From NCBI RefSeq assembly GCF_000023325.1, contig NC_012785.1:620001-684000 (forward strand): a stretch of DNA of 64,000 bases, in the 5' to 3' direction. The stretch comes from Kosmotoga olearia TBF 19.5.1. Lineage in GTDB: Bacteria > Thermotogota > Thermotogae > Petrotogales > Kosmotogaceae. Both the position numbers and the translations under genes were made by a program. Below are positions 9,098 through 49,559 of this stretch, one piece after another (position 1 is the first letter of the stretch; every line of letters starts with the position of its first letter). The notes under the pieces are model-generated. The model ran no database searches and had not been told where the DNA came from. It saw only the letters and a program-made list of their open reading frames with translations.

Positions 9098-9260
9098 AGT
9101 GCTGAGCTGCGCTCCGGACACTTGCAAAGGTTGATCTGTCATCCTGAACTTGATTCAGGATCTCGTACTTAAAAAAAACAGATTCTGGATTGAACATCTC
9201 CAGAATGACAGTGGGGGGTTAAGATTCTGGATTAAACATTTCCAGAATGACGGTTTTTAC

Positions 9261-9346
9261 AGCCGCGAAGCGGTTCGGGTCAACCACGCAGTGGTTCGAG
9301 GCAACTCCGCGGAGTTCGTAACACCGGCACAGCCGGTCGAATCGAC
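9261..9346. repeat. 21-nt-period mini-hairpin array A1
   Basis: Four units start at 9261, 9282, 9303 and 9323. Stems: AGCCGC-gaa-GCGGTT (one G-T pair), AACCAC-gca-GTGGTT, AACTCC-gc-GGAGTT and ACCGGC-aca-GCCGGT. Most are followed by TCG and a short spacer. A further GTCGAATCGAC palindrome follows at 9336-9346. Stem sequences change from unit to unit but stay self-complementary. Confidence 0.8.
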
Positions 9347-9462
9347 GATTTTTTGTACACCCGTCATCCTGAACTTGATTCAGGATCTCGTACTTAAACC
9401 CAGCTTCCAGATCAAGTCCAGAATGACAATCCTTTGTCTGTGGTCTTATTTCAAGCAACGTC

Positions 9463-9560
9463 AACTGCGAAGCAGTTCGTGACAACTCCGCAGGAGTACG
9501 AGACAACTCTGAAAGAGTTCGCAACAATCCCGAAGGGATTCGTATCGCTGCGAAGCAGCG
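9463..9560. repeat. 21-nt-period mini-hairpin array A2
   Basis: Five units start at 9463, 9484, 9505, 9526 and 9546. Stems: AACTGC-gaa-GCAGTT, AACTCC-gca-GGAGTa, AACTCT-gaa-AGAGTT, AATCCC-gaa-GGGATT and CGCTGC-gaa-GCAGCG. Spacers read tcgNNaca or similar. GTGCTTACC follows at 9567. Confidence 0.85.
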
Positions 9561-10178: not shown

Positions 10179-10425
10179 ACCATTTATCACCCCTATTACA
10201 ATAATCGTTGTAGGTTGTTCGAAAAACATCGAGAATCCGAGAAGGCGAGAACCCGAGAAGATGAGAATAAAAACAACGCTTCTCTTTTGAGCCCGCATAA
10301 CCACTGCGAAGCAGTTCGGAACAACTCTGAAAGAGTTCGCACCACTGGCGCAGCCAGTCGTACCAATCCCGAAGGGATTCGTACCCACGACAAAGTCGTG
10401 CTTACCAAATCTTGGACTCTCAATT
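10179..10425. repeat. Composite repeat element between 9606 and 10426 genes
   Basis: From about 10200 it carries GTTGTAGGTTGTTCG followed by CGAGAATCCGAGAAGGCGAGAA-type tracts to about 10265, then mini-hairpin array B (10302-10400), then GTGCTTACC and a short GGACTCTCAATTC end. This is the same module order, with one half inverted, as other copies in the window. No gene seen. Confidence 0.75.
10302..10400. repeat. 21-nt-period mini-hairpin array B
   Basis: Five units start at exactly 10302, 10323, 10344, 10365 and 10386. Stems: CACTGC-gaa-GCAGTT (5 bp), AACTCT-gaa-AGAGTT, ACTGGC-gca-GCCAGT, AATCCC-gaa-GGGATT and CACGAC-aaa-GTCGTG. All are 15 nt, with 6-nt spacers. Confidence 0.88.
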
Positions 10426-44099: not shown

Positions 44100-44381
44100 T
44101 ACCTCCTTTTTTACATATTTTTTCGCGCTACCGCATAACCCGATTTTATCAGCCTCCGCAACCCTCTGTTTTTATACCCACTCCGAAGGAGTGCTTACCC
44201 TCAGCGCAGCTGGGCTCACCCACGTGCTGCGGCCCTCTCGGACTCTCGAATCTCGATTCTCGCCCTCTCGCTTTCTCGGTTCTCGATTGTCACGTACAAC
44301 CTACAACGCACAACCAAAAACGATTCTATATTCTCGCCTTCTCGGTTCTCGAATCTCTTTTCTACACCCTATACCCGCTTT
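44100..44381. repeat. Composite repeat element (inverted orientation)
   Basis: This gap contains two mini-hairpin units (44179-44193 and 44200-44214, 21-nt step; CACTCC-gaa-GGAGTG and CTCAGC-gca-GCTGGG), GTGCTTACC at 44191, then long TCTCGG/TCTCGAA tracts (44229-44280 and 44333-44355) and ACGTACAACCTACAACGCAC (44292-44311), the reverse complement of the core at about 4455. No gene. Confidence 0.75.
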
Positions 44382-49008: not shown

Positions 49009-49559
49009 TGTTTGGAACCTCTGACGCGGTGAAGTGCGAAGCTACGCTCCGGACGTTTGCAGACACTGTCAGTTAGTGAAGCAACACGAACCGCAAGCAG
49101 TCGACAAGCGTCTCCAGCGGATAGAACCAAAGGCGAGTCTAGGATATGGAGAAAATGCGAGAGTCCGAGAACCGAGAATCCGAGAAATCAAGAACAGTAA
49201 ATTCCGAATCAAGTTCAGGATGACGAATTAGGCTTGCAATACTGTAATAAAGCATGTTCTTTATTGTAGGGTTTGTTCTTTGTGGACACAAAAATGTACT
49301 CTTATATACTGTCAAATAAAGGGCACAGCCCTATAATAGCGACTCTCGGATCACGGTTATTGTTTTAAGTATCAATTTTTTCAACCACGAAGTGGTTCGA
49401 AACAACTCCGCAGGAGTTCGTGTCAATCCCAAAAGGATTCGTGTCCGCTGCGAAGCAGCCTTCTCGGCTCTCGGTTCTCGGATTCTCGAATCTCGATGCA
49501 TATCTGTTATGATAAAATTCCTACCCAAAACATAAATTATTAAACCAGAGGGGATTGGG
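49009..49559. repeat. Repeat-rich intergenic region
   Basis: No gene in 551 nt. It contains TGAAGTGCGAAGC…CTCCGGACGTTTGCA (about 49031-49064, partner of 9093-9126), CGAGAGTCCGAGAACCGAGA tracts (about 49158-49186), AATCAAGTTCAGGATGAC (49207-49224, inverse of the 9138 repeat), GGGCACAGCCC (49321-49331), mini-hairpin array D and TCTCGG tracts up to 49496. Confidence 0.75.
49383..49460. repeat. 21-nt-period mini-hairpin array D
   Basis: Four units start at 49383, 49404, 49425 and 49446, all 21 nt apart. Stems: AACCAC-gaa-GTGGTT, AACTCC-gca-GGAGTT, AATCCC-aaa-AGGATT (one inner mismatch) and CGCTGC-gaa-GCAGCC. Confidence 0.85.

Follow-up and report, generated by a model that had tools for sequence, protein, structure and literature searches.

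Positions 9463 to 9560 of the stretch of Kosmotoga olearia TBF 19.5.1 DNA analyzed here, which we call the window (64 kb; bases 620001-684000 of a genome that forms one contig of 2,302,126 bp), hold a row of five minihairpins at almost constant spacing, and the question is what kind of element such a row represents and how it came to lie there. On the + strand, the hairpins start at 9463, 9484, 9505, 9526, and 9546 (steps of 21, 21, 21, and 20 nt), with arms AACTGC, AACTCC, AACTCT, AATCCC, and CGCTGC (unit order 1-3-3b-5-6) around GAA or GCA loops. An initial annotation, made from the letters of the window, had given exactly these starts and 6-nt arms, together with one terminal mismatch, which lies in the hairpin at 9484 (AACTCC-GCA-GGAGTA). 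When folded with DNA parameters, the array reached z-scores of -3.6 on the + strand and -3.1 on the other, compared with -2.2 and -1.9 when RNA parameters were used, a contrast that is suggestive at most because two different parameter sets are being compared.

Pairing and abundance of the 21-nt unit

Each unit has the form C-[5 variable nt]C-GNA-G[5 complementary nt]-C-NNNN, 21 nt in all, and an array holds 2-6 units at a spacing of 21 or occasionally 20 nt, some units combining a 2-nt loop with a 20-nt step. Units such as AACCGCTTGCGGTT recur (loci L008, L011, and L014), with a 2-nt or CTTG loop replacing GNA and a 20-nt step. To avoid circularity, pairing was assessed in middle units that were flanked by two perfect hairpins and taken blind to their own pairing. 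Perfect pairing was found in 101/115 of these. Among the 34 distinct middle units, 96.1% of cells were paired versus 60.3% after shuffling, covariation was 0.906 versus 0.228 (0/500 shuffles were as high), and every column slide of one to three positions failed the test. With no loop filter applied, the first loop base was G in 248/290 units and the third A in 281/290, the middle base being free. A column profile likewise gave a foot C in 239/242, a closing C in 225/242, and A as third loop base in 233/242, the arm and linker positions being far less constrained than the foot C, the closing C-G, and the loop G and A; the same picture was obtained for K. pacifica and a second relative (G006). 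Since the profile admitted units with up to two mismatches, it is not in itself proof of pairing, which the covariation test supplies. The foot C stands on both sides of the hairpin, and the apex, C(GNA)G, matches the GNA DNA minihairpin motif. Together, these results bear out two proposals of the initial annotation, namely that the triloops are of GNA type and that structure and period are kept rather than sequence.

Two alternative origins for such units can be weighed at this point. Arm complementarity might arise from mutation alone, with template switching in quasi-palindromes perfecting the arms without selection or recognition. This would account for double arm changes and for perfect arms in dispersed copies, but not for the loop G and A, the closing C-G, and the foot C, which are kept in three species beside a variable middle loop base and linker, and we consider it improbable. 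Alternatively, 21 nt being seven codons, the arrays might be remnants of a coding heptapeptide repeat, and one frame does stay open through many units; yet the arms covary, 20-nt steps break the frame, the two open reading frames crossing the array gave no Pfam match, and the arrays lie on both strands between genes, so that a coding origin is scarcely credible.

Arrays of 6-bp, 3-nt-loop hairpins with a 21-nt step number more than 100 in the genome and none in shuffled sequence. In the unselected window, 5 pairs and 2 triplets of perfect 6-3-6 hairpins occurred at +21, whereas 50 dinucleotide shuffles gave means of 0.04 and 0; the initial annotation had made its reading depend on such an excess over shuffled sequence. 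Dinucleotide shuffles served as the control for hairpin pairs, since reversal of the sequence leaves hairpins intact and is invalid for this purpose. Across 394 kb of stretches from the same genome, 219 hairpin pairs lay at exactly +21, 117 at +42, and hardly any at other spacings (shuffles, 0), although density is biased here, these stretches having been picked around arrays, while that of the window is unbiased. Genome-wide, the pattern AANNNCGVAGNNNTTCG had 219 matches versus 11 for the reversed pattern, and a two-unit covariance model had at least 121. At least 159 arrays with a minimum of two units lay in the 394 kb around matches, taken together with the window. All copy numbers are minimum values, coming from stretches around matches plus controls; eight 15-kb control stretches held no arrays, which indicates that arrays are numerous but patchy.

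Within the phylum, 11/103 genomes had matches, comprising eight Kosmotogaceae (K. olearia included) and three drafts of other families, and the model had no match in seven of the ten genomes of one Kosmotogaceae genus (g4). One contig of G041, one of these three drafts (C46), is nearly the same as another (C111 of draft G004), the two drafts being assigned to different families, and this is likely due to cross-binning. When a generic two-unit pattern was run against 84,980 species, from which records near K. olearia itself were possibly excluded, real arrays appeared solely in Thermotogae MAG contigs: these made up three of 15 matches, and the other 12, in other phyla, were chance matches with non-complementary arms. 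A scan of IMG/VR gave no matches. Units of this kind, in an order compatible with that of K. olearia, are thus shared by Kosmotogaceae relatives; elsewhere there were no convincing cases, and the repeat family is lineage-specific.

Unit order and the spread of blocks

Units fall into classes that follow one order: 1, AACYGC; 2, AACCAC; 3, AACTCC; 3b, AACTCT or AACTCA; 4, ACYGGC; 5, AATCCC; and 6, CGCYGC-like. Among 72 de-duplicated arrays, this order was broken in 3/430 unit pairs, compared with a mean of 215 and a minimum of 173 after shuffling. The fixed arm order put forward in the initial annotation thus holds overall, except that AACTGC/AACCGC stands before AACCAC rather than after it (29 to 1 where both occur), and its suggestion that each array is an ordered subset of one ancestral set gains support from the same count. 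Relatives show mostly compatible subsets (for example, 1-3-5 and 3-4-d-6). Ordered subsets, in K. olearia and in relatives, are what is expected from copies of one ancestral block that have lost units. One in-register single-unit difference was seen between the related copies at 1301601 and 1316148, but the pairwise gaps between similar arrays gave no sharp 21-nt peak, so it is chiefly the order of units that speaks for their loss. Other unit series obey the same 21-nt grammar (CACTCC-CCTGAC-CCCAGC-CCACGC and CGGCTC-CGTGAC-CTGGGC).

The window itself offers several further arrays, all on the + strand. Next to the five-hairpin array, 9261..9337 has the order 1-2-3-4 (AGCCGC, AACCAC, AACTCC with a 2-nt loop, and ACCGGC), and one part of it is 97% identical to another site in the genome. 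A third array, at 10302..10400, reads CACTGC-AACTCT-ACTGGC-AATCCC-CACGAC, then CTTACC. Farther along, 49383..49460 carries 2-3-5-6 followed by a TCTCGG decamer tail, and 44179..44214 holds a pair of units (CACTCC and CTCAGC) from a second series, with a TCTCGG tail at some distance.

We then asked, by synteny, whether blocks are present at the same places in relatives, placing the flanking proteins of twelve array loci in those genomes and comparing the gaps. At 1585923, 929373, and 296938, two to four relatives aligned cleanly across the gap and had no block; at 965214 and 1554299, where alignment was poor, absence was judged by gene spacing. The K. olearia block at 1585923 separates a TATAAT-like box from the ribosome site, and the gap is compact in four relatives; at 965214, the upstream frame takes its stop codon from the block. 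The block end at 965100-965160 lengthens the reading frame of the upstream gene. Synteny gives presence or absence and no direction, so that several relatives may instead have lost a block, although this is the less economical account. Three near-identical copies of about 300 bp (917496, 929342, and 965118) diverge abruptly outside the element and have unrelated flanks, which shows that blocks have spread. No target-site duplication was visible at the synteny gaps or at these three copies, and element ends were ragged rather than base-defined. Copying as blocks is well supported. It counts against the reading favored below, as do the ragged ends and the g4 genomes with no match, that the arm changes may represent few old events copied many times.

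Composite blocks, neighboring repeats, and genes

Mapping of modules across intergenic regions showed an outward orientation of the arrays, most of which terminate in TCTCGG-type decamer runs; this tail lies 3' of the GNA strand in 69/92 arrays and on the 5' side in 19/92. Such a run, CCGAGA-type on the + strand and TCTCGG-type on the - strand, is assigned to the - strand at 10230..10268, and it forms the end module at element ends genome-wide. Some composites are foldback-like and 300-800 bp long, often with CGTC REPs inside, and symmetrical blocks (decamers, inverted array, REPs, array, decamers) were found at 261717-262521, 1909404-1910051, and 748837-749887. In a 1.7-kb gap at 97438-99122, a long composite block is repeated several times in tandem, which makes this site well suited to the study of block duplication. 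MITEs and foldback elements have inverted ends built of repeats. Several Kosmotoga blocks resemble them in carrying opposite-facing arrays and TCTCGG runs at both ends, the runs being one-sided in other blocks, but differ in their ragged ends and in having no visible target duplication. As in BIMEs, intergenic palindromes in both orientations are mixed with other repeats, though the blocks are not built of REPs of the E. coli type.

A CGTC-type REP, GTCATCCTGAACTTGATTCAGGATC, lies on the + strand at 9138..9173, with an identical copy at 9363-9398, and faces two copies of a partner palindrome, TTCTGGA...TCCAGAATGAC, at 9180..9254 (+). CGTC REPs of K. olearia, here found beside arrays, have been described before, and the REPs within blocks, that at 9138..9173 among them, fit the stem and loop described in words for CGTC-3 REPs (PMC3733652). 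Known from K. olearia and M. prima, CGTC-3 REPs share with the arrays the genome and the intergenic blocks, and they too are palindromes with variable arms that lack a transposase of their own; they differ in having 8-9-bp stems, mostly 4-5-nt loops, a CGTC tag, and mainly head-head dimers, and no ordered 21-nt arrays are reported for them (PMC3733652). The 6-bp stem and 3-nt loop therefore set the arrays apart from CGTC REPs. CGTC precedes hairpins solely in a side module, and there only some of them (CTGGAC and CGGAGC), the linker being otherwise variable except for its last C; with no tag at the palindrome foot, assignment to GTAG- or CGTC-tagged REPs was rejected. The GTAG REPs, BIMEs, and REPINs associated with RAYT/TnpAREP (PMC2817692, PMC3116915, PMC8266576) share with the arrays a high copy number, intergenic palindromes, mosaic structure, and a plausible role as single-stranded hairpin substrates, whereas the Kosmotoga arrays have a fixed unit order, no GTAG tag or shared unit sequence, and no linked enzyme. 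Short palindromic repeats of Volvox organelles (PMC2670323) are likewise selfish-looking intergenic hairpins with a preferred 3-5-nt loop that nest into larger repeats, but they are about 50 nt long with TAAA/TTTA loops, have no reported fixed period or order, and belong to eukaryotic organelles. CRISPR arrays were also rejected, because a single array contains different arms, the same arms turn up in other arrays, and linkers are 5-6 nt. Consistent with the initial annotation, which knew of no described repeat of this type, we found none in the literature on tandem minihairpin repeats, the coverage of which was incomplete.

Arrays are intergenic in 85/87 scorable cases according to a crude codon-usage gene call, in agreement with their original placement between genes. 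A role in RNA like those proposed for REPs, with rows of hairpins behind genes stopping transcription or shielding the 3' ends of mRNA, would be in line with their relative frequency between convergent genes (30/85 arrays versus 46/261 adjacent gene pairs) and with RNA folds somewhat better than those of shuffled sequence. Set against this, co-directional gaps show no array strand preference (17 versus 21), which weakens both roles; 17 arrays lie between divergent genes, and the block at 1585923 sits upstream of a ribosome site. Moreover, z-scores are stronger with DNA parameters, blocks are missing in relatives, and Rfam gave solely a sub-threshold match (E 0.89). Intrinsic terminators were rejected as a class, since the array is followed by TCTCGG instead of a U-run and has no strand bias with genes. 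An RNA function is accordingly unlikely.

A proposed single-stranded intermediate and a possible enzyme

We favor, at a probability of roughly 60%, a dispersed, non-autonomous hairpin-mosaic repeat family of Kosmotogaceae whose blocks spread as DNA by way of single-stranded intermediates in which the hairpins would fold. We infer that the folded single strand is the conserved entity. The fold, closing C-G, GNA loop, and foot C would be retained while arm letters drift, through selection on the folded substrate, hairpin-templated correction of the arms, or both, and common linkers, feet, and loops would let whole units drop out in register, leaving ordered subsets. Host genes would be affected, if at all, only incidentally. 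GNA minihairpins such as d(GCGAAGC) are known as oligonucleotides (Hirao 1994 and Yoshizawa 1997, cited in PMC11101458); GCGAAGC occurs letter for letter at 9467-9473.

The candidate mobilizing enzyme is an HUH/Y1 single-strand transposase. TnpAREP enzymes read folded single strands, and some need loop bases (PMC8266576), which makes mobilization by a Y1 enzyme attractive, albeit unproven. A stronger version, in which the arrays are REPs moved by a resident RAYT-like Y1 transposase (a REPtron), could draw on this activity and on a pair of Y1_Tnp genes (PF01797), located at 1.342 and 1.356 Mb, which share a degenerate array directly at their 3' ends and sit where array orientation flips. The two genes are duplicates of each other, however, and so attest to one event; no array directly adjoins the Y1_Tnp genes of K. 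pacifica, G006, or the g4 genomes, and G008, a draft that is 83% complete, has arrays and no match to the Y1_Tnp family. Nor is there a GTAG tag, and PMC3733652 reports no CGTC sequences flanking the tyrosine transposase genes of K. olearia. Palindromes of the form GGGGACTG...CAGTCCCC also occur near the Y1_Tnp genes (L031 and L032 flanks; the gene in L032 spans 1177-1887 on the minus strand) and elsewhere; these GGGGAC...GTCCCC palindromes, which again count against the arrays as the substrate, seem to form a repeat family apart, one that may belong to the transposase. We therefore hold this version to be unlikely.

Around these genes, array strand is nearly uniform: about 15 intergenic regions left of 1.36 Mb carry arrays on the + strand (1281000-1341600) and about 12 to the right on the - strand (1380700-1430000), so that opposed arrays face a stretch with one of the Y1_Tnp genes inside it and the second at its left edge. 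In most of the remaining genome both orientations occur, and sampled GC skew gave no clear origin from which a replication-strand bias could be read; the flip near 1.36 Mb could reflect local spread or a replication landmark. In addition to dnaA at 412, 12 further matches to the DnaA-ATPase family were seen, in repeated ORFs of 242-267 aa that are probably IS21-type IstB helper genes.

The single-strand reading that we favor has a more specific form, which we offer tentatively: an enzyme or DNA-binding protein would read tandem single-stranded C(GNA)G minihairpins at a spacing of two helical turns, making the element a mobile or structural DNA defined by its shape. If so, any arm letters would be tolerated that preserve pairing, and the history of the element would be written in its unit order.

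The family is new, lineage-specific, and REP/BIME/MITE-like, distinguished by covarying arms, a C(GNA)G apex, and a period and unit order that are both fixed. It thus represents a bacterial repeat in which fold, apex, foot, period, and order are conserved and the arm letters are much freer, and it provides a natural test case both for whether hairpins that form in single-stranded DNA are themselves under selection in chromosomes and for how mosaic palindromic repeats spread with no obvious transposase. Since sequence-based repeat finders tend to split such families, similar ones may escape notice elsewhere.
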